Below, piece after piece: positions 11,923 to 64,000 of a stretch of 64,000 nt of DNA. The position numbers were made by a program, and so were the translations under genes. The DNA comes from Arthrobacter sp. SLBN-100 (GTDB lineage: Bacteria; Actinomycetota; Actinomycetes; Actinomycetales; Micrococcaceae). Location: assembly GCF_006715305.1 (NCBI RefSeq), contig NZ_VFMY01000002.1, positions 1 through 64,000 on the forward strand, read 5' to 3'. Within the stretch, counting starts at the first letter, position 1; the number at the start of each line of letters is the position of its first letter. Below the pieces are notes generated by a model. The model saw nothing but the letters and a program-made list of their open reading frames with translations, made no database searches and was not told where the DNA came from.

Positions 11923-12586
11923 CGAGAGAACAGACCATGCTGAGACGCCGAGTTGTCACCGATAACATCGGCCAGAAGGCAAGGTGCCCGGGCGTGCTGG
12001 AGCGGGCTCCTCGCGCAGAGGAACACCGACAGCCCGGCAGGCCATCACCATCGACGACCTGTGCGCATCCCCCGGGGTCGGCCTCCACTTCCGCCATGAG
12101 TTCCTGCTCCAACACTGGCACGAGCTGTTGGTGCAGCACGGCCAGGAGTGAGGCTCCTTGGAGTATCCGTTGGCGTCTGTCTGGAGGCGCCGGCGGAAAC
12201 CGCACGACAAACACCAGCCAAGACAGTAAAGACTTCTGACCATGCAAGTAGCGACTGATGGTCTCCTCATAGCGTTCAGCTCCGAAAGGAATTAGATGCC
12301 TTACAGCTACCGGTAGCCGTCTGCCGAGGGGTATTTTCTGGCTTCTTTGGCCCTTACTGGTACCTCTGCGGATGCAGTGTGTGTAGAGTACGGATTTTCT
12401 AAGCCCGGAAGGCTTTAGTTGAAGTTATACAAATGGGTGGGGACATTCCGCGAAAAAGGGCGAAGAACCAGCTCAACACCCGTAGTGCCCCCCATCCGCC
12501 TATATCACTGGCTATGACCTGTCAGTCGACGGGCCAACAGATTCGTCTAGATCGTGATGCCAACCCTAAAAAACGAAGGAGTTTTC
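11923..12586. other. Intergenic stretch, nothing recognised
   Basis: About 660 bases between pntB and the MaoC gene. Open frames at 11909-12247 (minus) and 11937-12239 (plus) have no motif I can name. The MaoC promoter should lie near 12450-12560. Confidence 0.35.
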
Positions 12587-48100: not shown

Positions 48101-48423
48101 AAAGGCTGCAGCATCTTGTCCATGGCCCTCTTTCCAGTGACAGCGTTGCTACCGGCAACCTAAAGGGCGTTCGCAAACGAATCTGGGAACGATTTACAGG
48201 CACCCTCTTCATGCGCGGTGGCGAAGACGCCCTCAACGCTTTGCACGAACGACCCCTGCAGAAAGCAGCAGAAGTGAAACTCCGGGCCGCCCTGCGGATC
48301 CGGGTCTCTGACGACGACCTTGTCGCTATCCTCAATCAGCTGCATGACGACGACAAACTCGTCATCAAATCCATAGACAAGGACCCCCTACGGGTCGTCT
48401 GCTCACTAGGAATCCAGGACTAA
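45118..48423 (+). CDS. PLD-nuclease/SNF2-type helicase fusion, candidate restriction subunit
   Basis: A 1,101-residue protein. Residues 1-230 are a phospholipase-D-type nuclease with one HKD motif: RRPLHGKAYVL near 149 and GSSNLTAAGL about 20 residues later, as in PLD restriction nucleases that act as dimers. Residues 260-900 are a superfamily 2 SNF2-like helicase: GDVVGLGKTLT near 290, VICDESHNLR near 361, LLTATPYN, VLVFTEYKD, ATDVLSEGQNLQ and QRAGRVDRIGQ near 812. It should translocate on DNA by ATP and cut. The stop overlaps the methyltransferase start (TAATG), so both form one system. It appears complete. Similar to, but not the same gene order as, DISARM. Confidence 0.88.
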   Translation: MPTIFDNSETNTLGGSLLKTFPEHKRIDVATGYFDLRGWGTFSDLVDMKHPAEGHPGDPVARVLVGMVAPSAAESVLHDLQEQVQPPDPHAGIADFESARNRQAQLVNHLREQLMRGLSTKEGQTSLRALKRQLRSGLVEIKVFTRRPLHGKAYVLHNPGHYALPIMGYLGSSNLTAAGLYRNLELNVDVLEQDAAHKLDDWFITHWNDTFSLPITEQIIELIEESWAAEEQPTPFEVFLKVCHSMSQDVRDGYGYVLPPSMHQLLLDYQESAVRILARRIVRRGGTMLGDVVGLGKTLTAVATAMLLQAAEDYSTLVLCPKNLEEMWQKHLDAYDIPGRVVPYSMAAKVLPELKRFQLVICDESHNLRTNTRKDYEAIREYVRGNDSKVLLLTATPYNLAFEDVANQIGLYLDEDDDLGIEPMAALALNPALADKVDGKTNTLAAFRFSEESEDWKRLMSDHLVRRTRSFIKRTAKKKPVMLADGRTVEREYLEFSDGTPFFFPVRVSRPVSHDFGADDPARLMEDDETLDAIKSLLLPRYVLASYDSLKHRHTEEDKKILDDIRTGRGNVAGFVRTGLFKRLSSSGYSFIQSLQRQRARNDLYLYAIENRLPVPLGNFADKQFGAVTDEDIEETEGTHGTSASRYEYLRGHLPASTKWLNTTIFTDALRADLERDNDTLTWLLDRYGTWDPSKDSKINALVDLLTKNHPGDKVLVFTEYKDTAEYIAKALQESGIENVGLATGNTDNLGSVARRFSPTSNKLPGTKADDAAVTDPIDVLVATDVLSEGQNLQDSHIVVNYDLPWAIIRLIQRAGRVDRIGQKSLTVYVYLISHEKVEQQISLRLRIKQRLESSAQAFGSDEQFFGSDDEIRILDNFYDGTLEDDSVVDEEADVVSEAWLVWSHALEKHPHIAKRVLAMPDMVQSTRNRFINESRSCVVCYVNTTSGVDAFAVSTGGEAGLRERERLITPYEAFKLFHAEPETPTAQLRDDHFERLQHLVHGPLSSDSVATGNLKGVRKRIWERFTGTLFMRGGEDALNALHERPLQKAAEVKLRAALRIRVSDDDLVAILNQLHDDDKLVIKSIDKDPLRVVCSLGIQD

Positions 48424-51221
48424 TGGCTGCCACACTGCTCGGACTCGTTGACAAACATGACTACCAGAAACTCTTCCTCGAGCACCTGCGATGGTCTAGG
48501 CCGGACCAGCAACCTATAACCGTGCCGCTGGACGGCAGAGGAAAATATCACATAGCCAATGTGTCCAGTTATAAAGGGCTTCGCGTCTGGGTCTGTCCCG
48601 AGCTGCCAAACTCATCTGACCAGGCCGCAGTTGACCGCGCCATTGCTAAGACGTCAACGGACCGTCTGCTCATTTTTCACGATGAAACGAAGCAGGTCTG
48701 GCGCTGGCCGGTCCGAACTCTTAAGGCCGGTAGCGTCACTACGAGACTCACTTCTCACGTGCACGTCACAGGCATGGAAAACCCCAAGCTGCTAAGGCGG
48801 CTTCAAGCGATCACTCTGGGCATCACGGAGAGCCTGAGTGCAACTGATGTCATCGAACGCGTCAAGAGGGCCTTCGACGTAGAGACGGAGAAGGAAACCA
48901 AACGGGCCTCCAAGCTCATGGCATCCATGTTCGACGCCCTAAAAAAAGCAGGAACACCCGAACACGGGATCTCCGTAACCCTCGCACGCACTCTGTTCCT
49001 CATGTTCGGAGACGACACCGACATGTGGGACAAGGACCTGTTCCAGAAATTCATCATTGATCACACGCGCCCGGACGGTTCAGATCTTGCTGATCGTCTC
49101 AACGAACTTTTCATTTACCTGGACACTCCGGAAGACCGGGACGCAACGCCAAAGCACCTCGCAGGGTTTAAGTACGTCAACGGGGGTCTCTTCCGAGAAC
49201 GGATTACGCTTCCTCCGATTGGACCGGAACTGCGTACCGCGATCCTAGACGCCACTTCGTCTGACTGGTCGGATATATCTCCAGCCATTTTCGGCTCGAT
49301 GTTCCAATCCGTGCGCGATGCGAAGACACGGCGTGAATTCGGCGAACACTACACGTCGGAAAAGGACATTCTCAGGACCCTTAACCCTCTATTCCTCGAT
49401 GAGCTTCGGGAAGAGTATGCCAAGGCGGTCGATCATCGGGAAGAAACTGCCCTTTTGACCAAGCTACGGGAGCGACTGGCGCGCATCCGATTCCTGGACC
49501 CGGCATGCGGCTGCGGGAACTTCATTATCATCGCTTATCGAGAACTGCGGTTGCTTGAAATCGCGATCCTGGAACGGCTCAAACTCAAGGAATCCCAACG
49601 CAACAGCAAGGTAGATGCCAGCCAACTCGAAATTGCAATTGGAACAGCGGACAACAGGCAGGGACGCGGGAAGACAACGTTTCTGGACCCCAAGGTTGTC
49701 CTAGACAACTTCTTTGGAATCGAAATCGACGAATGGCCGGCCAAGATTGCGGAGACGGCCATGTTCCTCATGGACCGACAATGCGATCTCCAAATGATCG
49801 AACGCTTGGGCTATGCGCCTGAAAGGTTGCCGATTCAGCGGCAAGCGACCATCGTTACAGCAACGGAAGACAATCTAGGCCGTGGAAACAGCCTTCGGTT
49901 CGAATGGTCCGACCTCTTTCGCCCCGACGACGACACGATCGTTGCAGGCAATCCGCCCTACGCAGGCCAGTCACTACGGACAGATGAGCAGACTGCGGAT
50001 CTGCAGCTCGCCTGGGGTAACGACTATGACGGGTATCTGGACTACGTCACTGGATGGCACGCTAAAGCCATTACCTTCTTATCTTCGACGACGGGAGCCA
50101 GATTCGCCTACGTCACGACGAACTCCATTGCCCAGGGGCAACCAGTTCCAGCCCTCTTTGGGCCGATCTTCAGGGACGGATGGAGAATTCGGTTCGCTCA
50201 CCGGACGTTCCCCTGGGAATCGGAGGCTTCGGGCAAAGCTGCTGTCCATTGTGTGATCGTTGGCTTCGACAGGGGCGGCCCCCGGCCGCAGCTGTGGGAT
50301 TACAGCGGAGGCAAGGGAGCAGTCCAGCACAACGAAGTTCCGTTCATCAACGCTTACCTCGTTGACGGTCCAAACGTCCTGGTCCGGAAGCGATCCAAAC
50401 CACTCACGCCTTCGTTGCCTGAGGTGAACTATGGATCTAAGCCAGTGGATGGTGGATTTCTGGTGGTCAAGAAGCCGGAATATGACCATGTGGTGGCCGA
50501 TCCCATCGCGGCCAAATATTTGCGTTCGTTCATCGGGGCCGATGAGCTGATCGGTGGGACTGACCGATGGTGTCTATGGCTCGTGGATGCAACAGAGGCA
50601 GATATTGAGGCCTCACCTATTCTCCTGGAACGAGTCGAACGCGTTCGACAGATGCGTCTTGCGAGTACCAAAGCCGCAACCCGAACTCAGGCAGCAACTC
50701 CGCACATTTTCAGTGAGATACGCCAGCCGAAACGTCCCTACCTATGCATTCCGTCTGTCGTCAGCGAGAACCGAGCGTACTTGACGACGGCCCGCATGAA
50801 GCCAGAGGTTATTACGAGCAACCTGGCTTTTACCGCACCGGACGAGGATGGCTTCCTATTCGCACTAATTTCGTCCTCAATATTCATGGATTGGCAACGC
50901 CTGGTCGGAGGAAGGCTCAAATCCGACTATCGTTTCTCGAACACCATCGTTTGGAACAACTTTCCCCTTGGACATACAGATCCTGGACCACGCAAAGTAA
51001 TAGTTGACGCCGGCTCAAGGGTGCTGGCCGCGCGAGCCAAACACCCAGGGGCTTCACTCGAGAGCCTCTACGACCCGAGCGCCATGCCAGAGGATTTGCT
51101 GGCAGCCCACCTCGCCTTGGATAAGGAAGTTGATTCCTTCTTTGGCATACCCGTCGAAGCGTTGGAACTGGATCGTCAACGTTTACTACTTGAGCGCTAC
51201 GTGAGGTACGCATTGCGTTAG
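48423..51221 (+). CDS. MmeI-like N-6 adenine DNA methyltransferase, modification partner
   Basis: A 932-residue protein. Residues 290-325 read FGSMFQSVRDAKTRREFGEH then YTSEKDILRTLNPLFLDEL, the entry helix of MmeI-type methyltransferases; SAM motif I is FLDPACGCGNF near 358 and catalytic motif IV is NPPYAG near 510. The N-terminal 150 residues differ from the PD-(D/E)XK endonuclease of MmeI, and I see no clear nuclease motif, so cleavage probably rests with the fused PLD of the upstream gene. The C-terminal part has the target-recognition region (IFMDWQRLVGGRLKSDYRFS). It would protect host DNA at its site. Coupled to the helicase by TAATG. Confidence 0.88.
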   Translation: MAATLLGLVDKHDYQKLFLEHLRWSRPDQQPITVPLDGRGKYHIANVSSYKGLRVWVCPELPNSSDQAAVDRAIAKTSTDRLLIFHDETKQVWRWPVRTLKAGSVTTRLTSHVHVTGMENPKLLRRLQAITLGITESLSATDVIERVKRAFDVETEKETKRASKLMASMFDALKKAGTPEHGISVTLARTLFLMFGDDTDMWDKDLFQKFIIDHTRPDGSDLADRLNELFIYLDTPEDRDATPKHLAGFKYVNGGLFRERITLPPIGPELRTAILDATSSDWSDISPAIFGSMFQSVRDAKTRREFGEHYTSEKDILRTLNPLFLDELREEYAKAVDHREETALLTKLRERLARIRFLDPACGCGNFIIIAYRELRLLEIAILERLKLKESQRNSKVDASQLEIAIGTADNRQGRGKTTFLDPKVVLDNFFGIEIDEWPAKIAETAMFLMDRQCDLQMIERLGYAPERLPIQRQATIVTATEDNLGRGNSLRFEWSDLFRPDDDTIVAGNPPYAGQSLRTDEQTADLQLAWGNDYDGYLDYVTGWHAKAITFLSSTTGARFAYVTTNSIAQGQPVPALFGPIFRDGWRIRFAHRTFPWESEASGKAAVHCVIVGFDRGGPRPQLWDYSGGKGAVQHNEVPFINAYLVDGPNVLVRKRSKPLTPSLPEVNYGSKPVDGGFLVVKKPEYDHVVADPIAAKYLRSFIGADELIGGTDRWCLWLVDATEADIEASPILLERVERVRQMRLASTKAATRTQAATPHIFSEIRQPKRPYLCIPSVVSENRAYLTTARMKPEVITSNLAFTAPDEDGFLFALISSSIFMDWQRLVGGRLKSDYRFSNTIVWNNFPLGHTDPGPRKVIVDAGSRVLAARAKHPGASLESLYDPSAMPEDLLAAHLALDKEVDSFFGIPVEALELDRQRLLLERYVRYALR

Positions 51222-52351: not shown

Positions 52352-52579
52352 CCACCCAGGACGCCCTGGGCCACGTCCATGACCGCCCCGGTGATCATCC
52401 CGCGGGACCGTTTCGCGGAATGGCTCGACCCGGACCTGACCGACAAGAACGACATCCAGCACCTGCTGGACTCCCTGCCAGAACCGACTCTGACACCAAG
52501 GATTGTCAGCCCCCGGGTCAACAGTGTCCGCAACAACGGGCCGGAGCTCATCGAGCCCGCCGAGCCCGCAGGCAAATAG
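52352..52579 (+). pseudogene. SRAP C-terminal remnant, duplicate of 41495-41725
   Basis: From DALGHVHDR on, the bases match the 3' third of the SRAP gene with modest divergence (FAEWLDPDLTDKNDIQHLLD, TPRIVSPRVNSVRNNGPELI). A 2-base deletion after GHVHDR breaks the frame and the first two-thirds are missing. Confidence 0.85.
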
Positions 52580-52592
52580 ATAGACTCAGGCG

Positions 52593-52738
52593 GTGATACT
52601 CGCGGCACTATCACTAACCCGGACGGCAGCTCCAACCACATCGAGGCCGAGGGCGACACCTATGAAGAAGCGCGGGAAAACCTCTACGCGCTTCTGGAAG
52701 AGGGTCAAAACCTCCTAGTGATCCGCACGGATCGCTAA
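52593..52738 (+). pseudogene. Frameshifted copy of the 47-residue SRAP companion
   Basis: It matches 41735-41878, keeping GTITNPDGS, HIEAEGDTYEEARENLYALL and a similar end. One base is lost after the GTG start, so the conserved frame has no start codon. Confidence 0.75.
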
Positions 52739-53622
52739 CCCGCATGAAGCCGGTCCGGCAACGTCACGTCGGCAGGTGATAGCTCCGGCCTGGCCCGGAG
52801 TATCCGCAAGGGGTGCCGGAAGGATCTTCCTGACCATGCGGTATCTGCGGAGACCTCAATAACCAGGGGCTCCACGAGCGTCAGCGCCACGGGTTCCTTG
52901 TCCCGGTTGAACCTGTCCAGGGCCGTACCTTTCACACTGGTTGGCCAGGGATGCTCACCCACAGGCGGGTGAAGCCATCTCGCCAGCTCCCTACTATCCC
53001 TCGCCTTCAGTGGCGTGGACCGGCCCACGATCCGCAGCTTCCCATCCAGGACGAGGCCGGCAACAACTTCAGATGGTTGGGTGATCGGCCCAATCACTGC
53101 GCCGCAGATGATGTCTACGGTTTCTCTGTGTTTGAGCTTCAGCCACGAGCGTGCACCCGGGGTGTAGGGCTGATTCAAATCTTTGATGACCAGCCCTTCA
53201 ATCCCTGTGGGTGGCAGGTCTTCGAACCACTTTTCGGCTACCTCCCGGTCAGTGGTGGCGGGGGAGAGGGACAGAGGCGGGTCCCAGCTGCTGGCGAGTT
53301 CTTCAAGGAGCGCCCGGCGGTCGGTCAGCGGCAGGTTCCTGGCGTCATGCCCGGCGACGGCAAGGACGTCGAACGCAGCGTAGCTGGCCGGCGTTGCAGC
53401 AACCAGCCCGGGAAGAGTCTTTGGCCCAGCACTCAGGCGCTGCTGCAGGGCGGTGAAGTTCAATCGTCCCTGGCTCCAGATCACGGCTTCGCCGTCGATC
53501 ACACATCCCGGTGGCACGGCCGCGGCGATCGCTGCAACGAGTTCCGGGAAGTACCCCGTCAATTCCTTCTGCTGCCGGGACCACAACGTGGCGCCGTTAT
53601 CGTCACGGATGCAGACGGCCCG
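52735..53622 (-). pseudogene. ATP-dependent DNA ligase, C-terminal part, cut off by an insertion
   Basis: The remaining ~296 residues begin RAVCIRDDNGATLWSRQQKE, run through the adenylation domain (VIDGEAVIW, GIEGLVIKDL, WLKLKH motif V) and the OB-fold to the C-terminus LPDRLHAG. The N-terminal 50 residues with the nucleotidyl-Lys (EPKWDGY) are missing here but are present on the same strand at 62679-62828, where they end exactly after KWDGY. In the intact cargo homologue (57299) the order is KFDGYR-VLIFRD, so the two parts join without loss. The product would lack the adenylated Lys and be inactive. Confidence 0.9.
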
Positions 53623-53681
53623 GCATGTTAACTGCACCTTGAGTTGGTCTTTTGGGAAATACCAGCTGGAAGGATGGGACT

Positions 53682-54845
53682 GTGACTGGCAACGTCGGCA
53701 GGGTCCTGAAAGCTAATACTGGTCTTCCGTATCGCCTCATCTTCCCGGAGGCGGAACACGTGGTGGTGTCATCGTTCCTGCGTGACCTTGCCGCCTCGGA
53801 TTGTTCGCCGGCCACGTTGCGTAGTTACGCCTACGACATGTTGCGCTGGTTCCGCTTCCTGCACGGGAGGTTTGTGCCCTGGGAGCGTGCTGAGCGGCTG
53901 GATGTCAGGGCTCTGGTAGAACACATGCGTGCATCCCCAACTGCAAATACCCTGCGGAAAGGGAGCGACCAGGTCACCGCGGTCAACACGGTGACTCGTA
54001 AGCGAGGATTGGGAACCACGTTTTCAGCCAATTCCATCAATCATCAGCTCACGGTTCTGTCCAGCTTTTACGATTTCGCGCTTGAGATGAACCTGGGTCC
54101 GCTAGTGAACCCGGTGCCCCGGCAGCGGGGCGTCGGGACACGGGCATACGCCCACCACAACCCGATGGAACAGTTTCGGCCGCCACGGCGGGGGACCTAC
54201 CGGCAACGTGTTCCAAAGCCGGCGTGGCGGGGGATCCCGGACTCGGCCATGGCGGCTATCTTCAATGGCTTGACGAACCATCGCGATAGGGCCTTGTTGT
54301 CCTTTTGGCTTAGCAGCGGGGCCCGGGCGGAAGAACTGCTTGGACTACGGCATGGGGACTACGACTTCGGTGAACACACACTCGTCGTGACTAGCAAAGG
54401 AACCCGTAACCGCGATCTCGTGCCTGCCAGCCCTGATGCTTTCGTGTGGTTGGCGCTGTACATGCGTGAGGGCCAGCCGGCCTCGCCTGGTGACCGGGTG
54501 TGGTGGACCCTGCACCAGAAAAACCGCCGGCCACTCGGGTATCCGGCCGCGCGTCAGATGTTTGCCAGAGCCCAAAAAGAGCTCGGCTCTAATTGGACCC
54601 TGCACGATTTGCGGCACACGGCCGCAGAGCGGATGATCGCCGACCCGGCTTTCACCCTTGTTGACGTGCAAACGGTGTTGCGGCACGTCAACGTCACGAC
54701 CACAACGATCTACACACAGCCCCGCATGGAGGATGTATTGCAGAAAGTCCTGGAGCACTACGCCAGACCTCCTCGGGAGGCGCCGGGAATCGAGCCAGAG
54801 TACGATGATGCGGCGCTGCGCGAACTGCTGGGGCTGGGCGAATGA
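53682..54845 (+). CDS. Tyrosine recombinase A of the 9-kb element
   Basis: GTG at 53682, with GGAAGG eight bases earlier, gives 387 residues; an in-frame TTG at 53652 is weaker. Residues 35-160 form a SAM-like core-binding domain (SSFLRDLAASDCSPATLRSY). Catalytic residues are in order: Arg in SSGARAEELLGL, Lys likely in VTSKGTRNRD, His-x-x-Arg in LHDLRHTAAERM, and Tyr in TTTTIYTQPRM after RHVN (His/Trp position His). It performs strand exchange at the element ends. It lies next to the left end and overlaps recombinase B by ATGA, so the two act together. Confidence 0.92.
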   Translation: MTGNVGRVLKANTGLPYRLIFPEAEHVVVSSFLRDLAASDCSPATLRSYAYDMLRWFRFLHGRFVPWERAERLDVRALVEHMRASPTANTLRKGSDQVTAVNTVTRKRGLGTTFSANSINHQLTVLSSFYDFALEMNLGPLVNPVPRQRGVGTRAYAHHNPMEQFRPPRRGTYRQRVPKPAWRGIPDSAMAAIFNGLTNHRDRALLSFWLSSGARAEELLGLRHGDYDFGEHTLVVTSKGTRNRDLVPASPDAFVWLALYMREGQPASPGDRVWWTLHQKNRRPLGYPAARQMFARAQKELGSNWTLHDLRHTAAERMIADPAFTLVDVQTVLRHVNVTTTTIYTQPRMEDVLQKVLEHYARPPREAPGIEPEYDDAALRELLGLGE

Positions 54846-57331
54846 CGGGTGAAACTACCATTCAGGATCTCCGGCTGGCGGCACAGGTCGCCGCGGCCCA
54901 AACATATATCCGTGCAAGGGAGTTGCGGCTGCAGGCCGACAGTCCTGTCACTGCAGCCAATAAGGCAATGCCCCGGCAAGCTTTTGACGCCGGAATTTTA
55001 GGTCCCCAGGACCAGCACTGGGAGTTTCGGCATCTTCAGTGGCTTGGAGCAGAGGATGCCTTCGCATGGGTTGAGCGCAGTAATGGAGCCTACGGAAGGA
55101 GCGGAGAACGCCAAAAATGCACCAGCCTCGCTACACGCGACGTCCTTGGATGGTTGTTGCGTTTTCCGGGGGAGACGTGGGATGAACGATGGTTCGCGTC
55201 TGGTCTGGATCAGGCGCCGAGAACGGGACGCACTGAACTTAGCGCACGACTGGCACGACCGATGCGGGAGATCAGCCTGGGTATGACGAGCATTGTCCGT
55301 GCCCGGCTCGTTCGACCTTCCTATGAATGGATGTTTTCGTCGAAGCAGTGGAACAACAGCCGTGGGGCCGTCACGTTCCTGGATGCTGCCGAACCGGAGG
55401 AAACGCCGCGTATGCGCAGGCTTCCTCAATATCAGGCAGCGCATGAGCTCGTGCGCCGGAATGCTGAGAACGCTATCGCCAGGGTAATGGTGAGAACAGG
55501 AAAACGGCTGGGGCAGCTGAGCGGGGAAGACCTTCTCGCGTACTCACATACCGCTCGTATAAACATGCGGCACGCTAAGGAGCATCTGGCATGGGAACTT
55601 CTTGTCGCCCTTGGCCCGTTGGCCGGAGAGCCTCCAACGCTGCGGGCCGCCTGGCACGCCAACGTAGTCAACCGTCGGCACACTGTCGAAACCCTGGTCC
55701 GGCGCTACGGCATCCCGCAGTCAGGAGTCAGGGATCTGCTGATCGATTACCTTGAAGAGCTCAAACCCAACATGGACTACAGCTCGCTCGAGAGTCTTTC
55801 CTACCGGCTGATCCGTTTGTTCTGGGCCGAGGTGCTCGACATTAACCCTGCGCAGCAGAACCTTCACCTTGCCCCGGAGGTTGCAGCTCAGTGGCGCGAG
55901 CGTGTCAAGATGACGCTTGGAGGCATGCCCCGCACTGAAACGGCATCAACCTTTTTCGCCGTCCGGGCCCTTTACCGGGACATCGCGGAGTGGTCGCACG
56001 AGCAACCCGAACGCTGGGGCGTCTGGGTCGCGCCCATCCCACTTCCACGCGCCGAATCCAAGGCCTCTTCCAAGCGCCGCCGCCAGGTCGTTGCACGGAT
56101 GCAGCAACGCACCCGATCCCTGACACCTCTGCTGCCGGCGTTCATGCGCTCCGCTGAGGCATTGAAGGAAAAGGGCAGCGCCCTGCTCGAACGCACCTTG
56201 GCCGCCGCCCACACGGAGACCTACACCGTCGAGGGGGTCACGTACCGGCGCCACGACCCGCCCGTACGCGCCAAGGCGAACACCCGCGCCCGAATTTGGG
56301 CTGAAGTGATAGCAGCGGATGAAGATGCCACGCCGCCTGTTTCCGTCGGAAAGCGGGCCGACATCACGGCATTCGAAGCTGACTGCTTCTGGGGCTGGGC
56401 GGTGGCAGCGACCCTCAAGGAAACGGGGGTCCGAATAGAAGAACTGCTGGAGCTGACCCAGCTGTCCCTTCGCCACTATGTGGCCCCCACAACCAACACC
56501 ATCGTGCCGCTCCTGCATATCGTGCCGTCCAAGAACGACCAGGAACGCCTGATCCCGATGTCTCCGGAACTCGTCAAAGTCCTCGTTGAAGTCCAGCGGC
56601 GCGCCCGCGGGACCGGCAAAGCGGTGCCACTTTCAACCCGGTACGATCCCAACGACAAGACCTTCAGCGAACCGTTGCCTCACCTGTTCGCCCGTCTGGT
56701 CGGGCCAACCCAAAACGTCTTGTCCTACCACTACGTTCGGAAGCTGCTCATCGGCATAGCTTCCTATGCAGGCCTCAGCGACGGCGGTATACCCGTGACG
56801 TTTACACCCCACGACTTCCGGAGACTCTTCGCCACCGAGCTCGTTGGTTCCGGATTACCCCTGCACATTGTCTCGACCCTCCTCGGACACCTGAACCTGG
56901 AAACCACCCGCGGGTACACAGCAGTGTTCCCCGAACACGTCATCCAGGCCCACCACGCCTTTATTGAACGCCGCCGGCATACCCGTCCCAGCCATGAACT
57001 CCGCCCGGCATCGTCCGAGGAATGGCAAGAGTTTGAACAGCACTTTCTCCTACGACGGGTCGCACTGGGGACCTGTCATCGCCCCTACGCCACCCCCTGC
57101 GTGCACGAACACGCCTGCATCAAATGCCGGTTCCTGCAGGTCGACCCCGCAGAGACAGGGCGAATAGAGGATATGACCGCGAATGCGGAAGCGCGCCTGG
57201 ACGAAGCCCGGAAGCACCAGTGGCTGGGAGAGGTCAAAGCCCTGGAGGAAAGCCTCGTGCACCTTCGCCGCCGACGCAATGAAGTGGCAGCTTCACCTTC
57301 ACCGGCCCGTGTTTCTGACGTTCAGTCGTGA
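54842..57331 (+). CDS. Large tyrosine recombinase B of the 9-kb element
   Basis: An 829-residue recombinase, about twice the usual length, as for TnpB of Tn554-type elements. The first 500 residues are mostly helical and unfamiliar. The catalytic domain is at the C-terminal side: Arg in TGVRIEELLELTQL, His-x-x-Arg in TPHDFRRLFATELV, His in LLGHLNLETTRGYTAVFPE with Tyr following. After it comes a Cys-rich segment, TCHRPYATPCVHEHACIKCR, probably a zinc finger, and a final coiled coil. The last 33 bases overlap the convergent ligase gene. It works with recombinase A, and both appear intact. Confidence 0.9.
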   Translation: MTGETTIQDLRLAAQVAAAQTYIRARELRLQADSPVTAANKAMPRQAFDAGILGPQDQHWEFRHLQWLGAEDAFAWVERSNGAYGRSGERQKCTSLATRDVLGWLLRFPGETWDERWFASGLDQAPRTGRTELSARLARPMREISLGMTSIVRARLVRPSYEWMFSSKQWNNSRGAVTFLDAAEPEETPRMRRLPQYQAAHELVRRNAENAIARVMVRTGKRLGQLSGEDLLAYSHTARINMRHAKEHLAWELLVALGPLAGEPPTLRAAWHANVVNRRHTVETLVRRYGIPQSGVRDLLIDYLEELKPNMDYSSLESLSYRLIRLFWAEVLDINPAQQNLHLAPEVAAQWRERVKMTLGGMPRTETASTFFAVRALYRDIAEWSHEQPERWGVWVAPIPLPRAESKASSKRRRQVVARMQQRTRSLTPLLPAFMRSAEALKEKGSALLERTLAAAHTETYTVEGVTYRRHDPPVRAKANTRARIWAEVIAADEDATPPVSVGKRADITAFEADCFWGWAVAATLKETGVRIEELLELTQLSLRHYVAPTTNTIVPLLHIVPSKNDQERLIPMSPELVKVLVEVQRRARGTGKAVPLSTRYDPNDKTFSEPLPHLFARLVGPTQNVLSYHYVRKLLIGIASYAGLSDGGIPVTFTPHDFRRLFATELVGSGLPLHIVSTLLGHLNLETTRGYTAVFPEHVIQAHHAFIERRRHTRPSHELRPASSEEWQEFEQHFLLRRVALGTCHRPYATPCVHEHACIKCRFLQVDPAETGRIEDMTANAEARLDEARKHQWLGEVKALEESLVHLRRRRNEVAASPSPARVSDVQS

Positions 57332-58369
57332 CGGAACGCCGACGTCTGCTGGGTCGATCTCGGGACGGACCCTGCGGAACCTCAGGGAATGCCGGAACGA
57401 CTGGCCAGACCAAGCAGCGTCGGCAAGCACCTCAACGACGACGGGATCAACGAGCGTCAGCTCGGTCGGCGACGCGTCACGATTGAAACGGTCCAGGGTC
57501 GTGCCCTTCACCACCGATGGCCAGGGGTGGGTCCCTGCGGGCGGCCGCAACCAGGGAGCAAGTGCCCTGCTGTCAGCAGCTTTCAACGAGGAGCTGCGGC
57601 CGACGATACGCAACTCGCCATCGATAGGCAGCCCGGCCACGATCTCGGTCGGTCGCTCCAGGGGGCCGATGACGGCAGCGCAAATGACGTCCACCTCTGA
57701 GACATGCTTGGCCTTAAGCCAGATTCGCTTCCCGCCCATATAAGCCTGACTGCTGCTCTTCGCCAGCAGTCCTTCCATACCAACCCCGGCAAGACCTTCG
57801 AACCACTGCCGGGCGAGGTCCCGGTCAGTCGTTTGAGGGGATAACGAGAGCGGGGGAGCCCAGACCGTTGCCAGCTCCTCCAACAGGGTCCGACGATCCG
57901 CAAGCGCCAGGTCCCTGACCTCTTGCCCGGCTACACCGAGAATGTCGAAGCCGACAAAATGGGCCGGCCGCTCTGCGGCCATGGACTGCAGTCTCTCCCT
58001 ACCTGCGGACAACCTCCGCTGGAGGGCTTCAAAATTCAACCTCCCGTCGGACCACACCACAGCTTCGCCATCGACCACACAACCAGGCGGAACCATGGAC
58101 GCTGCCGCCTCCGCTAGATCCGGAAAATACCGTGTCAGCTCTTTGCCTTGGCGAGACCAAATGCTCACCTGGTCGCGGTCCCGAAAAATTAGGACCCGGT
58201 AGCCGTCGAACTTCGGCTCGAAAAGCATCTGGCCAGGCAACGCTGCAGGCGGAGGAACGCCCTTCACAGCCTTCGCCAAGACCACCTCCAGCGGCGGGTG
58301 AAGCGACGGAGGAATCACCTCACTGGGCTCTGCCATGCCCTCAGAATAGGCCTCTTTGTGAGGATGCAA
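57299..58369 (-). CDS. Intact ATP-dependent DNA ligase carried as cargo
   Basis: Up to 356 residues from ATG 58369; ATG 58336 (MAEPSEV) is an alternative start. Nucleotidyl-Lys motif I is FEPKFDGYR, motif III WSRQGKELTR and VVDGEAVVW, motif V region GMEGLLAKSS and WLKAKH, then an OB-fold ending in VGVPSRLN. It resembles LigC-type ligases that seal breaks during end joining or repair in actinobacteria. It is homologous, nearly gap-free, to the ligase disrupted by the element itself (52735-53622 plus 62679-62828), so the element may replace the function it destroys. Cytoplasmic. Confidence 0.9.
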   Translation of the reverse strand: MHPHKEAYSEGMAEPSEVIPPSLHPPLEVVLAKAVKGVPPPAALPGQMLFEPKFDGYRVLIFRDRDQVSIWSRQGKELTRYFPDLAEAAASMVPPGCVVDGEAVVWSDGRLNFEALQRRLSAGRERLQSMAAERPAHFVGFDILGVAGQEVRDLALADRRTLLEELATVWAPPLSLSPQTTDRDLARQWFEGLAGVGMEGLLAKSSSQAYMGGKRIWLKAKHVSEVDVICAAVIGPLERPTEIVAGLPIDGELRIVGRSSSLKAADSRALAPWLRPPAGTHPWPSVVKGTTLDRFNRDASPTELTLVDPVVVEVLADAAWSGQSFRHSLRFRRVRPEIDPADVGVPSRLNVRNTGR

Positions 58370-58546
58370 TCTATTTCAAAGGGTTGCCCTGATGAACCTG
58401 AGCGCCGCTCAATTTGTTTGTGACGTGTAATTGCTCGGATTGGAGTGGAGTCTCACAACCTGAACTCGCCGCAGTGAGGTTTGGAGCCACATCAAGTCGG
58501 CTTATGCGATGGTCTTGCTGTCCGTAAGGGGATCGCGATCTGAAAC

Positions 58547-59281
58547 TTATATCCGGTGGACTTTGGCCTGGTCGATCCAACGGGCCAGCAAGCTGAAGGC
58601 TGCCAGTTGTTCTAGGGCAAGCTGCTCCTCGCCTCCGCGACTTTCCTGCGGCTTATGCATGCCAGGATTGCGGATCGCTGTATAAAGCCCATCCGCAAAT
58701 GATCGAGCGCCCCGATGATGGTTCTGATATGTCTTGCCCCCGTCGTCTTCTGTCAGCCTGAGTCGCGGCGCACCTTCCTTCGGCTCATCCATTGAGAAGG
58801 CCTCATTGAAAAGCGCTGTCTCAGATACATCCATGCGCTCCAGCTTCGCTTGCGTCTCGGCGTTGACGCGGATAGCGGCCTGCATTACGGCCTGATGATA
58901 ATGCCCTGTGTTCCAGTAGGATCGCCCGTTTTCCCAAGCCCAGGGGTGAAGATTGGCCGCATCCATATCTGGGGCGTTATCCCCTAGATTCTCAGCAAGC
59001 TCCGCCGCCCTTTGCATCGCAGCCTTGGCTCTTGAGGCTTGGTCCCGGAGCCAAACAAATTTCATATCCTTCTCTGGCCGATCCTGTCCCCAACCAGGCA
59101 GAACACGATCAAGAATCTGCTCCACCACGTGCGCACGCTGTGATGCTTCAGTCTGTGATCCGCGCAGGTGTGTTCCAAGGACTACGACTCCACCGCCACT
59201 ATTGTCGTAGCCGACTTGGTCGGTCACGCGTAGGAACTGGTCAATTTCTTTGATCGCCCATTCATGGTTCAACTTGCTCAT
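58547..59281 (-). CDS. TIGR02391-like protein of unknown function
   Basis: From ATG at 59281 the product has 244 residues. The C-terminal half shows the TIGR02391/Ymh pattern: WENGRSYWNTGHYHQAVMQA, AFSMDEPKEGAPRLRL, GARSFADGLYTAIRNPGMHK and LEQLAAFSLLARWIDQA. Members are found beside restriction and abortive-infection genes but their reaction is not known. The N-terminal half (NHEWAIKEIDQFLRVTDQV) is helical. It is divergent from the sigma-factor gene across a 14-bp inverted repeat. A defence link is only suggested. Confidence 0.7.
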   Translation of the reverse strand: MSKLNHEWAIKEIDQFLRVTDQVGYDNSGGGVVVLGTHLRGSQTEASQRAHVVEQILDRVLPGWGQDRPEKDMKFVWLRDQASRAKAAMQRAAELAENLGDNAPDMDAANLHPWAWENGRSYWNTGHYHQAVMQAAIRVNAETQAKLERMDVSETALFNEAFSMDEPKEGAPRLRLTEDDGGKTYQNHHRGARSFADGLYTAIRNPGMHKPQESRGGEEQLALEQLAAFSLLARWIDQAKVHRI

Positions 59282-59344
59282 ACAAGCATCGTGCCTTGTT
59301 ACGCCGACATCGCCCGGAAGGCCGGGCCTAGAGCGTATGCAGAG

Positions 59345-59395
59345 GCAGTGCATCCGTTAGCCGGTCGGACAACAGGAACGCAACGGATGCACTGC
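59345..59395. repeat. 14-bp perfect inverted repeat in the divergent promoter region
   Basis: GCAGTGCATCCGTT and AACGGATGCACTGC, 23 bases apart, between the TIGR02391-like gene and the sigma factor. It may be a regulator site or a hairpin. Confidence 0.6.
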
Positions 59396-59571
59396 GCCTG
59401 GGATTCGAAGTCCCGTTTGAGGAACCCTTTCGGGACACACAACATGCAAGAGCGCTAGCCGACCTGAGAGCTCGCCTGGCTCTGCGGGGAAGCGGCCGCC
59501 GTCTTTTCCGAAAAATTTGAAGTTTCTCCGCTTCAGTGAAACCTTTTGGGCTTTGCCGGACACTAAGGGGC

Positions 59572-60180
59572 ATGGGGAACAACGAAAGCGGGGAAGAGGA
59601 GCTGTGGCACCGAAGCCTACTAGGCCAGGGCGACGCCTTTGGCATCCTCTATGACCGGCACCGAGACAGGGTTTTCCGCCACGCGTACCGGTTGTGCGGC
59701 AACCACCACGATGCTGAAGACATCATGGCAGCCTCGTTCCTTGAACTCTGGCGCCGCCGAGAGCAGGTCCGGGTCGTGGAAGGATCCATTCTTCCTTGGC
59801 TGCTGGTCACGACCACGAACATGGCACGCAACCGCGTCCGTGCTGCCCTCCGCTACCAGCGGCTTCTGAATTCCCTTCCCCGTAGCCAGGAGGCCAACGA
59901 CCCCGCTGCAGATCCATATCGGAAATACCAGAACCAGCTCGATCAGGGCCTCACAACCGCGCTGAATACACTCACGGCAGAAGACCTGCATTTGGTGAGC
60001 CTGATCGTCTTCGAAGAGCGGACGGTTGCTGCGGCAGCCGCCGTCCTGAACCTCACTCCTGCGGCAGCAAAATCACGGATGCACAGGGCTCGTCAACGCT
60101 TAAGAGCCGCCCTCGACGGCGACACATCTACTAAACCGCCCACCGCTCCAACCCCGGTTCTGGAAGGAGAACGGCCATGA
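59572..60180 (+). CDS. ECF-family RNA polymerase sigma factor
   Basis: From ATG at 59572 the protein has 202 residues. Region 2 includes DAFGILYDRHRDRVFRHAYR, LCGNHHDAEDIMAASFLELW and the DNA-melting ILPWLLVTTTNMARNRVRA. Region 4 has TAEDLHLVSLIVFEERTVAA and a helix-turn-helix LNLTPAAAKSRMHRARQRLR. It directs RNA polymerase to a small gene set, possibly inside this element. The next gene overlaps it (ATGA) and codes for a membrane protein that may hold it inactive. The 5' region has a TGAAACCTTTTGGG word that could be its own -35 site. Confidence 0.9.
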   Translation: MGNNESGEEELWHRSLLGQGDAFGILYDRHRDRVFRHAYRLCGNHHDAEDIMAASFLELWRRREQVRVVEGSILPWLLVTTTNMARNRVRAALRYQRLLNSLPRSQEANDPAADPYRKYQNQLDQGLTTALNTLTAEDLHLVSLIVFEERTVAAAAAVLNLTPAAAKSRMHRARQRLRAALDGDTSTKPPTAPTPVLEGERP

Positions 60181-61091
60181 AGCAACTCCACGTTGACGAC
60201 GTTTTCAGCGATGCACTGCGGGCCGAACTGCTGACACGTGTCGAAAAGGCTGCCCCCGCCCGTACACGGAAACGCACCCGCCTCTGGGCCGGCGCTGCCG
60301 TCTTCGCCGGCATCGGTGTCTTGGGCGGGGTAGGCGCCACCGCCGGAGGCCTCTTCTCCATTCCGGGTTCAACTCAGGTAACCCCGTTGGCGTCACCTGT
60401 GACGGAGACTCGCACGGGAACGGCCACTGTTCAGCTCGGTCCGGCCCCGGAAGGTGCTACGGGCATCGATGTGCAGCTGAACTGCCTCAGCCCTGGGCGC
60501 TTCACCCTTGAGGACGGCGCCAACATCATCTGCAGCCAAGCTGACGTGGGAACACGCCAGGACTGGAGCGGCTATACGATTCCTCTCAAGGCCGGAGATG
60601 AGAGCATCACGATCACCACCAGCCCCGAGGCCCGCTGGAAACTAACAGCCCAATACGTTGACGCCAAAACCACCGACTGGGGAGTAAACGCCAACGGAGA
60701 TACCTACGGCGCAGAAAACGACAACGGAAGCCCCGATCTGGTCGCCGTGATAGCAACCAACGGAACACAGGGCTACGCCTATCGGACCGACCTCGATGAC
60801 GCTAATGGAACCACCGCCAGCAAGACGTTCAAGAGCCCAGCCGATGCTCTCGCCTGGCAGGAATCAATCAAGGGCAAAACGTTCGTCATTCCCGTCTACG
60901 ACGCAACCGGAAAGACAGTTGTCGGCGAATTTGTTATCAGCGCTGGCGGCGGGGCCTCCGGGATCTCTGGAGAGCCGCCTGGGGAATGCGCGGGAGTTCC
61001 GGCGACACTCGGTCCCGGTGAGGCATGGCCTTGCCCCGGTTTGTCGCCAGTAGAGACGGGACTCCCAGCGATCCCGGTGCCTCCCAACTGA
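60177..61091 (+). CDS. Single-span membrane protein, probable sigma-factor partner
   Basis: A 304-residue protein coupled to the sigma gene by ATGA. Residues 1-38 are cytoplasmic and short (VDDVFSDALRAELLTRVEKA), one membrane helix follows (LWAGAAVFAGIGVLGGVGAT), and about 240 residues lie outside, with strand-rich repeats and four Cys (LNCLSPGRF, NIICSQADVG, GECAGV, PCPGLS). An anti-sigma role is likely from position, but the cytoplasmic part is too short for a classic zinc anti-sigma domain. The C-terminal Pro/Gly tail is unusual. No family recognised. Confidence 0.6.
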   Translation: MKQLHVDDVFSDALRAELLTRVEKAAPARTRKRTRLWAGAAVFAGIGVLGGVGATAGGLFSIPGSTQVTPLASPVTETRTGTATVQLGPAPEGATGIDVQLNCLSPGRFTLEDGANIICSQADVGTRQDWSGYTIPLKAGDESITITTSPEARWKLTAQYVDAKTTDWGVNANGDTYGAENDNGSPDLVAVIATNGTQGYAYRTDLDDANGTTASKTFKSPADALAWQESIKGKTFVIPVYDATGKTVVGEFVISAGGGASGISGEPPGECAGVPATLGPGEAWPCPGLSPVETGLPAIPVPPN

Positions 61092-61402
61092 TTGCTCATT
61101 GTCGCAGCACTAGTGCCTACCAACAGAGAGCCTTCGGGCTTTTCAGCGGGACGTCCTGTTCGGGGAACGCTGAACGGGACGCCAGCCGTGAGTGCACACT
61201 CTAGATACATGCGGACCCAACGCTTGAAGGGACGCGCTTCGCCTTTTTATGCTCAGTTCTCTTACCTTGCAGTCCACAACGCGATCGCGCCGAATAGAAC
61301 GATTAGGACTCTTAGTACGTACCACGAGGGGACCGGTCACGGCGCCGTAAATTGCTAACGCGGCTCCACCGCTGCAACCGGTGATGATCCCTCACCGCGC
61401 TT
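61092..61402. other. Intergenic stretch, nothing recognised
   Basis: About 310 bases without a convincing gene or hairpin; base composition is less G+C-rich than in neighbouring genes. Confidence 0.35.
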
Positions 61403-61672
61403 CTAACGCCCAGTTAGAGAGTCTGTTTTCAGCGCTTCAGCGTGGCGCATGATGAGAGAAGCTGCAACTAAGACCGCAGAGAATAGGAGGCACACGACTG
61501 GGGCTAGCAGGTAAATCGTCGTGACCAGTATTGCCACGGGTGCGTCCCCCACGAATGTAGTGGTGCCGAAATTACCAATGATGAGCGGGCTCATCACTAC
61601 CAATAAGGCAGCGATTACAGCCAGACCTATCCCGGTACGCATCGTCGCCGTTGACAATTTTGACGCTTCCAC
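61403..61672 (-). CDS. Small membrane protein, unknown function
   Basis: GTG at 61672 behind GGGGG gives 89 residues; a TTG at 61711 would add 13. Two membrane helices are clear, GIGLAVIAALLVVMSPLIIG and LVTTIYLLAPVVCLLFSAVL, with a short polar loop (FGTTTFVGD) and a basic tail. No family recognised. The long overlap-free spacing to neighbours means it is probably monocistronic cargo of the element. Confidence 0.5.
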   Translation of the reverse strand: MEASKLSTATMRTGIGLAVIAALLVVMSPLIIGNFGTTTFVGDAPVAILVTTIYLLAPVVCLLFSAVLVAASLIMRHAEALKTDSLTGR

Positions 61673-61941
61673 CTTGGACCCCCATCCATCAATCAGATGA
61701 GTACCAGACAAACAGCACAGCCCGTCTTCTGCAAGGAGTTAGCCAAGAACGTTACCTCCTGGAGACTGTAAATGGTTCTGACGCGCCTTCAGCGGATCCT
61801 ACGCGCCGCCGAAAACTGTGATGGGCCGGAGGGACGGCCATGAGCACATCCCGAAAGAGGCCCGCCCGCAACCCGTCCCGTTAGTCGGTGGCTGGCCGCG
61901 ACGCTTCTACGCCGCGTTTGAGGAACCTTCAATGAGACGGA

Positions 61942-62535
61942 TCAGCCCGCCGCAGGGGCGATGTCCCCAAACTGCACTTTGACCGGGCAGCCGGCTGCCG
62001 CCGAGTACTTGCGCTCGAGTCCGGCAATGTCCGCCGTTGCCGCAATTGATTCGTCGAGCGTGAGTGCCAAGTGGGATCCATCAGGGGATACCGAAGTGAT
62101 ATTCACGGCGGGGTCTGAGGCCTGCAGTTCGCTGGCAAAATCCCTAAGTCTCCCAGGAGAGCAGGTCGCGGACTCGACCTGAATGTTGACGTTCGGAAAC
62201 CGGGCCCGTAGGTCCCTTTGCATCGAATCTGTCGGACCGTGCCAATGAACGATGATCCGGGTTCCCTCCTTCACTTCGACCGAGGCAAACCGAGAATTCC
62301 CTGCCAGCTCCTGACTCAGCGTGCTGGCCGTAAAGGCAATCGCCCCGTCCGCAGGCGAAATCTCAGGGGTGACCGGTGAGTCCGCAGTGGGTATCGGCTC
62401 TTTGGAGACAGGGGCACCTTCACCTCCAGCGACTGTAGACCCTGAGGTGGCGCACGACGTAGCAAAGAGAGAGAAACCCAGCAGGACAACCGTCAAGGTC
62501 CTGCACAAGTCTGAACCTTTAATTGGCGCGGCCAC
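61942..62535 (-). CDS. Putative secreted lipoprotein
   Basis: A 197-residue frame with GTG at 62535. The N-terminus LTVVLLGFSLFATSCATSGS is a lipoprotein signal with lipobox FATSC, so the mature protein is anchored outside the membrane. It then has a Ser/Pro-rich linker and a beta/alpha part (VEVKEGTRIIVHWHGPTDSM, FPNVNIQVESATCSPGRLRD) with two Cys that could pair. Function unknown. It is the last cargo gene before the right end of the element. TTG codons slightly inside are alternative starts. Confidence 0.6.
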   Translation of the reverse strand: MAAPIKGSDLCRTLTVVLLGFSLFATSCATSGSTVAGGEGAPVSKEPIPTADSPVTPEISPADGAIAFTASTLSQELAGNSRFASVEVKEGTRIIVHWHGPTDSMQRDLRARFPNVNIQVESATCSPGRLRDFASELQASDPAVNITSVSPDGSHLALTLDESIAATADIAGLERKYSAAAGCPVKVQFGDIAPAAG

Positions 62536-62678
62536 GCCTCATAGTATTGAACGCTCCGCCATACGACTACCCGGTCGCACCACTGTTATCGTTCCGGAAT
62601 CCTCAACGCAGTCCCAATGAGGGGTCCCTCACCGCGACAGCTCCGCTTAGACGTGCCGATTGACAGAGTGCAGTGAAT

Positions 62679-62828
62679 ATAGCCGTCCCACTTGGGTTCA
62701 TAGAGCAAAGTCCCGGGGATTGCGCCGACCCGCGGCATCTTTGTGACAGCCCGGGCCAAGGCCACTGTTACCGGAGGCGCCAGTCCCGCTGGCAGGCCGG
62801 CTCCAGCCAGTGACCTGTTAACCGTCAT
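62679..62828 (-). pseudogene. ATP-dependent DNA ligase, N-terminal part, cut off by the element
   Basis: Fifty residues from ATG 62828: GLPAGLAPPVTVALARAVTK, then GTLLYEPKWDGY. The last motif contains the nucleotidyl-Lys. The natural continuation RAVCIRDD is found at 53622 on the same strand. Past 62679 the frame reads element sequence and ends after another 30 codons. Confidence 0.85.
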
Positions 62829-62997
62829 CGAGGCCCCTTCCAGCCTTCGTCGCGGACGCGTCCCATGACCTCCACGCTACGCGTCAGAGGGCTGCAGGAG
62901 ACCTATCGAGCCCGGCGTGCAGCGGTTCCGTATTTAGTTACGTTATGTATTTTCGTTACGTCTTCCTAAAAGGAACGAAAGACGATAAGATGACGCT
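62829..62997. promoter_or_regulatory. Promoter region of the kfrA-like gene with a direct repeat
   Basis: AGTTACGT at 62936-62943 and CGTTACGT at 62954-62961 repeat GTTACGT with an 18-base period. KfrA-type proteins usually bind their own promoter, so these may be its sites. AAAGGAACGAAAG precedes the ATG. Confidence 0.5.
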
Positions 62998-64000
62998 ATG
63001 AGCGACAGCATTGTTGAAGTGGACGCACGCACTTGCCGCTACCCGGGCTGCCAGCGGCCCGCCATGGCAGCGGAGGCCGGCACAGGCCGGCCGCCCGAAT
63101 ACTGTGATGACCCCGCGCATAACCGCGCCTCGGCCTGGCGCGCACGGCAGCGCCCCAACGGGGACGCTGCCCGGGGCGTTGAGGCTCGCCCTGTCGACTC
63201 TGCGCGTCAGCGTGCCAGTGAGATCACGGGCCAGGTTAGCGGGATGATCGAGCACCTGGGCGGGCAGCTCGCGACACTTCTTGAGGAACTTCGCACCGTG
63301 GGGGATCCCGAGGCGGCAGAAGCTCAGATTGAGTCAGTAGCCAGCGAAGCCGCCGAGCGGGTTGCAGCCGCGAACGCGAGAGCTACCCGTGCTGAGCAGG
63401 CTCAGCGCCGGGCCGAGGCCGAGAAAGCCGAAGCCGACGCGGCAGCTGAAGAAGCAACGCGAACGAGCGAGGACCTCGCCCTGGAGCTGTCAGGTCGCCA
63501 GCAGGATCTGGACGCCGCCCTGTCCCAGGCTCAGCAACTCACCGATGAACTCGCGCAGGCCCATGCCTCGGCCGCCAGCGATCGGGAACTGGCGCAAGCG
63601 GAGAATGCCGGGCTGCGGGCCGACCTTGAAGCACTCCGTGGGCAACTGACTTTGGCTGAACAGGCACGTGACGCAGCCGCAGAACGGGCCGCGACAGAGG
63701 AACGGGCCCGGATTGAGGCAGAGCAACGTACCGGAATAGCCGAGAGCCGCACCGAGGCGGAGCGGGCACGCGCTGACCGCGAGGAATCTGCAGCCGAAGA
63801 GGCCCGGCGTCAGCTGGCGGCAGTCCGCGCCGACCTTGAGGCCACCCGCGAAGCTGCAGCCGATATGCGCAGCACCGTGGCGACCCTGACGGCGGAGCGG
63901 GAGGCCGCCAGAGCCGACGTCGAGCGTGAGCGCGCCCATGGTGAACAACGCGTCAAGGACCTTCACGAGACCTACAGCCACCAAATCGACCAGCTGCGCG
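62998..64000 (+). CDS. KfrA-like coiled-coil plasmid protein, 5' part
   Basis: From ATG at 62998 the frame is open through the right edge (over 334 residues). The N-terminus has two Cys/His pairs, CRYPGCQRP and YCDDPAHNRASAW, probably a zinc-binding unit, and from about residue 70 a continuous Ala/Glu/Arg-rich coiled coil (EAEKAEADAAAEEATRTSED and similar). This layout is typical of KfrA and related plasmid proteins thought to build filament-like scaffolds for plasmid stability and self-regulation. It starts after the ligase head and ends outside the window. The DNA-binding domain of classic KfrA is not evident. Confidence 0.75.
   Translation, partial: MSDSIVEVDARTCRYPGCQRPAMAAEAGTGRPPEYCDDPAHNRASAWRARQRPNGDAARGVEARPVDSARQRASEITGQVSGMIEHLGGQLATLLEELRTVGDPEAAEAQIESVASEAAERVAAANARATRAEQAQRRAEAEKAEADAAAEEATRTSEDLALELSGRQQDLDAALSQAQQLTDELAQAHASAASDRELAQAENAGLRADLEALRGQLTLAEQARDAAAERAATEERARIEAEQRTGIAESRTEAERARADREESAAEEARRQLAAVRADLEATREAAADMRSTVATLTAEREAARADVERERAHGEQRVKDLHETYSHQIDQLR

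Follow-up and report, generated by a model that had tools for sequence, protein, structure and literature searches.

Tn554 integrates into radC and is not known to carry a copy of its target gene. Three staphylococcal elements with Tn554-type recombinases, namely Tn553, Tn7702, and Tn552-II, are described in the available text of two papers (PMC10763498, PMC12486829). According to this text, the insertion sites of Tn553 and Tn552-II are divergent yolD-like genes, both plasmid-borne and chromosomal, and the elements carry a distinct yolD copy, for which the authors suggest possible complementation or rescue (PMC10763498, PMC12486829). The same text links yolD to error-prone polymerases and gives a rule for Tn553 and Tn554 in which the left 6 bp come from the target and the right 6 bp from the donor site (PMC10763498, PMC12486829). 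For actinobacteria, the available text of Van Houdt et al. (2012) describes a Tn554-related class composed of a long (611–828 aa) and a short (about 350 aa) tyrosine recombinase, located mostly on actinobacterial plasmids and including one pairing that lacks TnpC (PMC3414803). The long and short pairing is the same as in the element reported here, and that text describes no target genes or target-gene cargo for the class (PMC3414803).

The window, which is the whole stretch of 64,000 nucleotides that was analyzed, contains an element of about 9.06 kb (53622–62677) that interrupts a plasmid ATP-dependent DNA ligase gene inside KWDG/YR. The preliminary description had claimed that the element splits this gene at its active-site motif and carries an intact homologue, and both points held, since the flanks rejoin in frame and the carried gene (57299–58369) is full length. 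The contig of the window is 325.9 kb long, and another contig of the same genome is 4.6 Mb. Judged from relatives of the same genus, the smaller contig is apparently a plasmid of an Arthrobacter-group bacterium. The features of the locus are as follows.

52735–53621, reverse strand: 3' portion of the interrupted gene for the ATP-dependent DNA ligase, running from the Arg after KWDGY to the stop (DNA_ligase_A_M, positions 32–204 of 204)
53622–53627: GGCATG, the 6-bp coupling sequence at the left end, shared by 8 of 11 copies with resolved junctions
53628–53637: left terminal arm TTAACTGCAC, an imperfect inverted repeat of the right arm
53652–54845, forward strand: short tyrosine recombinase, 397 aa, with a 4-bp overlap with the next gene (PF00589, PF02899; HDLRH motif)
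54842–57331, forward strand: long tyrosine recombinase, 829 aa, with a helical N-terminal extension and core-binding and catalytic domains at about 292–691
57299–58369, reverse strand: intact ligase brought by the element (EPKFDGYR), whose gene converges on that of the recombinase and overlaps it (by homology, trees, and dN/dS)
58547–59353, reverse strand: Hypoth_ymh/HEPN-like protein, with 90% DNA identity to the related element in L030
59536–60180, forward strand: ECF sigma factor, other cargo
60177–61091, forward strand: hypothetical protein encoded after the sigma factor, other cargo, no family
61942–62535, reverse strand: hypothetical protein, other cargo, no family
62668–62677: right terminal arm GTGCAGTGAA
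62678–62683: TATAGC, 6 bp at the right junction, read as the target's own
62684–62828, reverse strand: 5' portion of the interrupted ligase gene, which includes EPKWDG with the catalytic Lys

The Hypoth_ymh protein (58547–59353) is common to the window and L030 elements and gives weak matches to HEPN and defence models. An MmeI-like methyltransferase with a target-recognition domain (48423–51221 of the window) adjoins the ligase locus.

When the element is removed, the ligase head, which ends in EPKWDG, rejoins the tail in frame. The tail shares 83% identity with the intact ligase of P. chlorophenolicus pACHL02 (L016) and starts at residue 46 of that protein. The 5' part keeps the motif with the catalytic lysine, and the 3' part keeps the rest; therefore, the target gene is broken. 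The preliminary description proposed that the element would avoid harm to its host, which may be so; the host genome has three further matching genes for ATP-dependent ligases. A scan of 52500–63100 against Rfam, which covers described families only, gave zero families at gathering score and thus no sign of a self-splicing insert. An IStron or other self-splicing insertion with a described intron was rejected on this result, as no such intron RNA was found.

At the left junction, the order is flank-[GGCATG]-TTAACTGCAC; at the right junction, it is GTNCAGTGAA-[6 bp]-flank. Other copies and uninterrupted alleles show that GGCATG (53622–53627) goes with the left end of the element and that the last base of the right arm is 62677. 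The bounds in the preliminary description, 53623 and 62678, had to be shifted by 1 bp on this evidence; KWDGYR is coded by both cuts. The 6 bp TATAGC (62678–62683) are read as the target's own sequence. GGCATG forms the left 6 bp in 8 of 11 junction-resolved copies, including the non-ligase sites of L034 and L035, and the right 6 bp equal the uninterrupted allele in both cases with a close allele (L030 with L015, L008 with pAD51). The Tn553/Tn554 rule is thus reversed here, with the left 6 bp mostly constant and the right 6 bp fitting the target.

Copy L030, excised by the end rule of the window, matches the uninterrupted L015 at 14 of 14 junction bases, with differences only further out. Copy L008, excised in the same way, is the allele of Arthrobacter sp. 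D5-1 pAD51 over the whole compared stretch. In both close-allele cases the flanks restore the uninterrupted sequence, with no target duplication and no lost target bases; Tn554, as far as its available description goes, also makes no target duplication. A search for an uninterrupted ligase allele had been proposed earlier, and in addition to the matches of L015 and pAD51 across the junctions, it yielded intact KWDG homologues in L016, L017, and L098. L015 and L018 are KWDG homologues that are uninterrupted at the insertion site and have frame breaks elsewhere. All five come from Pseudarthrobacter or Arthrobacter plasmids. One target-family ligase, L053 (G217:C7), matches without the N-terminal motif region and is seemingly broken.

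The short and long recombinase genes are adjacent and co-directional with a 4-bp overlap, and both proteins have the tyrosine-recombinase catalytic domain PF00589 and H-x-x-R motifs. As judged by gene layout and protein size, the pair (397 and 829 aa) is compatible with the Tn554-related class already known from actinobacteria. Tn554 likewise has adjacent recombinase genes and a unique integration site in the available text (PMC3414803). Any sequence relation to Tn554 appears to be remote. Matches of the long recombinase on staphylococcal and enterococcal plasmids, which are not named Tn554, reach about 25% identity over 30–35% of the query (E 1e-7 to 4e-6), and a match in a soil Peribacillus has a layout of two recombinases and a small protein. 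In the gene layout of the window, no co-directional tnpC was seen after the long recombinase, where the next gene is the convergent ligase. In contrast, Tn554 proper has tnpC directly after tnpB, while the available text includes pairs without TnpC in the actinobacterial class (PMC3414803). Elements of the Tn553 type also have tnpC, and their target is a yolD-like gene rather than a ligase active-site codon. A further group of compared elements has four core genes and gammaproteobacterial hosts, both unlike the present element. In genome G182, which holds a relative that is 36–39% identical, four identical copies of about 3.75 kb share the left 6 bp (4 of 4) and vary in the right 6 bp.

The sample of related copies comprised 15 recombinase pairs with flanks (the window, L008–L014, L030–L035, and L038) with a long recombinase at least about 55% identical. 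By tblastn, a ligase tail starting at the residue after KWDGY lies left of the pair in 10 of the 15, and L013 is an eleventh pair at the same ligase residue, seen by a short translated stretch only. Ligase halves were found at both ends in 7 of these 11, in one record for the window, L008, L009, L010, L030, and L031 and on a second contig for L032. The rejoined flanks are in frame at KWDG[Y/F]R in all seven, although in L009 a stop takes the place of the Tyr codon. The expected rejoining of flanks into a ligase in related copies was thus borne out. Interruption of ligase genes required at least seven changes on the ligase tree; the tree with five carried-type rows was built without L013, L014, L053, L056, L057, and rows of up to 150 residues. 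These results confirm that the arrangement is real, recurrent, and precise, and the use of the same residue in 10 of 15 pairs is not chance.

Four of the 15 pairs lie away from ligase genes: L033 inside sequence without an identified gene, L034 with a transporter gene on one side and gatC on the other, L035 where a gene of the LacI type has its 3' end, and L038 within a gene for a serine resolvase, whose flanks rejoin in frame. The names of the flanking genes of L034, L035, and L038 were read by eye from translations. The earlier claim that a conserved ligase codon is targeted therefore stands for most pairs, but targeting of the ligase site is preferential, given the four pairs elsewhere. Among the genomes with off-ligase pairs, G609 and G611 have zero target-family ligases (best match 36% identical), and in G610 the carried KLDG ligase is the only target-family ligase found. 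These three are without a free preferred ligase; therefore, the use of other sites accompanies a missing preferred site in three of the four. The fourth, G006, has an open KWDGFR ligase of the target family.

Of 10 plasmid loci, six (L009, L011, L015, L016, L017, and L098) have a umuD and/or Y-family polymerase gene in the annotated stretch around the ligase, and four (L008, L010, L012, and L018) do not. This can be compared with the link between yolD and polymerases in the Tn553 case.

The carried ligase (57299–58369) has an open full-length frame and is 61% identical to the disrupted tail. Its annotated start is TTG, with an ATG 11 codons in. It matches DNA_ligase_A_M and also PRK08224, the latter at 234 bits, which is under the model cut-off of 296. 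Among the 15 copies, three have it (the window, L030, and L034). The ligase search matched only the tail in the L008, L009, L011, and L012 records and gave no ligase match in the L010 record at the threshold used, and a carried-type ligase was not found in the genomes of L031, L032, L033, L035, and L038. Copper or arsenic resistance genes, and no ligase, adjoin the recombinases in L008 (11611–17008), L009 (11610–18636), and L012 (11548–18922). With a projected length of about 64 kb, the L008 element is likely to contain other insertions. In a Mycolicibacterium relative, L014, a LigC-type ligase with KWDGFR (11228–12295) starts 5 bp after the long recombinase; it is of another type than the carried one and possibly represents a separate ligase capture.

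The carried ligase persists in two places where the recombinases have decayed or are gone. A decayed copy, L037, is located in the host's own chromosome (G000:C1:1238000–1244400; L037 11957–18361). It has the long recombinase in broken pieces, a target ligase tail with stops, and an open carried ligase frame, and a search for the short recombinase gave no match. In L126 (G733), a solo carried-type ligase with an open frame is left with about 60 bp of a recombinase end, and the search matched no recombinase up to about 9 kb away. The claim that the element carries an intact homologue thus holds for the window, L030, L034, and the decayed L037, but the carried ligase is optional and not a fixed part of the element, being absent from most related copies. 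On the recombinase tree, this trait needs three gains or losses, which could be one gain plus losses, or exchange.

The carried ligases form one clade (100/100) that is sister to the disrupted sub-group (98/98), in a tree without L015, L018, L053, L057, L085, and matches under 180 residues, hence without L010. With a fifth carried-type row, the carried clade and the sister relation both have support of 100/99, and the sister sub-group holds the window and L030 targets and L015–L018. The dN/dS ratio is 0.09–0.12 in all six pairs among four carried ligases, a rough value because synonymous sites are near saturation. These ratios indicate that the carried ligases are under purifying selection.

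The conserved target arm beside the cut, C[GA]TCCCA[CT]TT, contains a single Trp codon. Free-standing ligases of the family have Trp in KxDG at 28 of 31 distinct readable loci (30 of 33 rows); 36 loci were tried, L047, L053, and L086 were unreadable, and L045/L118 and L048/L121 were duplicates. A survey of KxDG covered 120 of 314 homologues as listed plus eight own rows, with P0010 and P0006 repeating own rows and P0036/P0037 being one sequence. Among these rows (120 of 314 homologues plus eight own rows), the carried clade has 24 rows, 22 of them distinct, and the distinct rows read F in 13, L in 3, and V in 3 with 3 unreadable, which gives Trp in 0 of 19 readable rows. Outside the carried clade, among the same rows, the residue is W in 91, F in 6, and L in 1 with 6 unreadable (Trp in 91 of 98). 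Support for the 24-row node is only 63, and its 27-row parent, with a support of 99, holds two W. The Trp change in the carried clade may have been one or a few events.

Enzyme function or drift could explain this loss of Trp just as well as escape from insertion. In its favor, the residue between K and D in KxDG is variable across ligases, and seven rows outside the carried clade also have F or L (120 of 314 listed). The use of three different replacements with no Trp in 19 readable rows (120 of 314 listed) argues against it, as does the position of the Trp codon inside the conserved target arm, where it is kept also at the L034 site. At that non-ligase site, the right-hand arm fits the ligase-arm consensus at 15 of 16 positions, CCA included; the chance of such a fit is about 2e-7 for one random site, with a consensus made after seeing the sites. 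The off-ligase sites of L033, L035, and L038 fit at only 7, 4, and 8 of 16 positions, and the own sites of the carried ligase genes still fit at 13–14 of 16. Immunity of the carried ligase to insertion may be regarded as a good, unproven idea.

More distant relatives, with a 41%-identical long recombinase, occur in P. aurescens pTC2 (L105/L106) and Arthrobacter sp. NicSoilB11 (L103/L107). In L106 (14984–25155) and in L107, on the reverse strand, a gene for YhcG (DUF1016, a PDDEXK nuclease) is cut just before its VVVELK motif. Both halves were identified, and the element of about 9 kb contains a full-length YhcG. The carried YhcG copies are 97% identical to each other and the target heads 69%, and the termini are of the same kind as in the ligase-splitting elements. 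YhcG/DUF1016 is the PADLOC candidate defence family PDC-S02. IS21 istA-like transposase genes, read by eye from translations, are split at conserved codons in L102, L104, and G182 (L022, L026, L028, and L029), and no carried istA was found in the stretches covered around these copies.

On these data, the element is probably an Arthrobacter-group, Tn554-related transposon; it enters KWDG ligase genes, and a sub-lineage carries a ligase that probably replaces the lost function. This site-specific two-recombinase transposon enters LigC-like ATP-dependent ligase genes, mostly plasmid-borne, at one codon boundary by KWDG. It would move as a circle that includes a coupling segment of 6 bp, the route described for relatives of Tn554. 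The carried ligase of the sub-lineage descends from a sister of its targets and would replace the function lost by insertion, cutting the cost to the host plasmid. More weakly, the data suggest that the Trp codon may have been lost (to F, L, or V) as part of the DNA target of the recombinases, so that the spare could not be hit. Rescue by the carried ligase appears to be the likeliest reading, and the YhcG and Tn553/yolD cases repeat the match between target and cargo. Speaking against the proposal are the four off-ligase pairs, the presence of this ligase in only three of the 15 copies, and the three other ATP-dependent ligases of the host.

A wider version can be put forward tentatively, in which the element is of a disrupt-and-rescue kind that targets the TGG-containing active-site motif, common to most ligases of the target family, and brings a spare with that codon changed, which works but cannot be hit, and in which the same strategy, separate in YhcG and yolD elements, is a recurrent trait of the superfamily. 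An alternative, in which the ligase is a mere passenger that was picked up a single time by accident from an earlier target and has no rescue role, is unlikely. Such an accident would give a carried ligase from the target lineage, as found, and agrees with the 12 of 15 pairs that have no carried ligase as far as seen and with the copper and arsenic genes of L008, L009, and L012. However, it is at odds with the purifying selection on the carried ligase, with its persistence beside decayed or lost recombinases (L037 and L126), and with the repeated target-cargo match in the separate YhcG case and, in the available text, the published yolD case (PMC10763498, PMC12486829). A role in transposition, with the ligase sealing nicks from a strand-biased exchange such as the single-strand exchange thought to occur, in the available text, in SEs and by analogy in Tn554-like elements, is very improbable, as L008, L031, and L032 have apparently intact recombinase frames without a carried ligase and other members carry YhcG or yolD instead.

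The preferred reading, rescue by a carried ligase, has a precedent. A target-plus-replacement arrangement had been called unfamiliar for this recombinase type, which cannot be upheld in view of Tn553/Tn552-II and yolD in the available text (PMC10763498, PMC12486829). The present element shares with the Tn553 type an intact carried homologue of the disrupted gene in the window and L030, but not in most related copies. This kind of arrangement is therefore known already from staphylococci. Ligase and YhcG genes as targets, the separate repetition of the arrangement, a left 6 bp that stays constant, and the altered Trp site appear to be new. Among the papers listed by a literature search, with subscription papers mostly outside its scope, none deals with elements of the class that target ligases.

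A target is now identified for actinobacterial Tn554-like elements, and their ends and uninterrupted sites are available for tests. Together with the YhcG and yolD cases, the element shows that members of the superfamily have repeatedly come to carry a copy of the gene they split. Natural KWDG and KFDG genes make the idea of blocked insertion directly testable, and if the Trp-site change does block insertion, the element would be a naturally occurring equivalent of the engineered cleave-and-rescue drives. The element of the window may both break a ligase gene and supply the spare.
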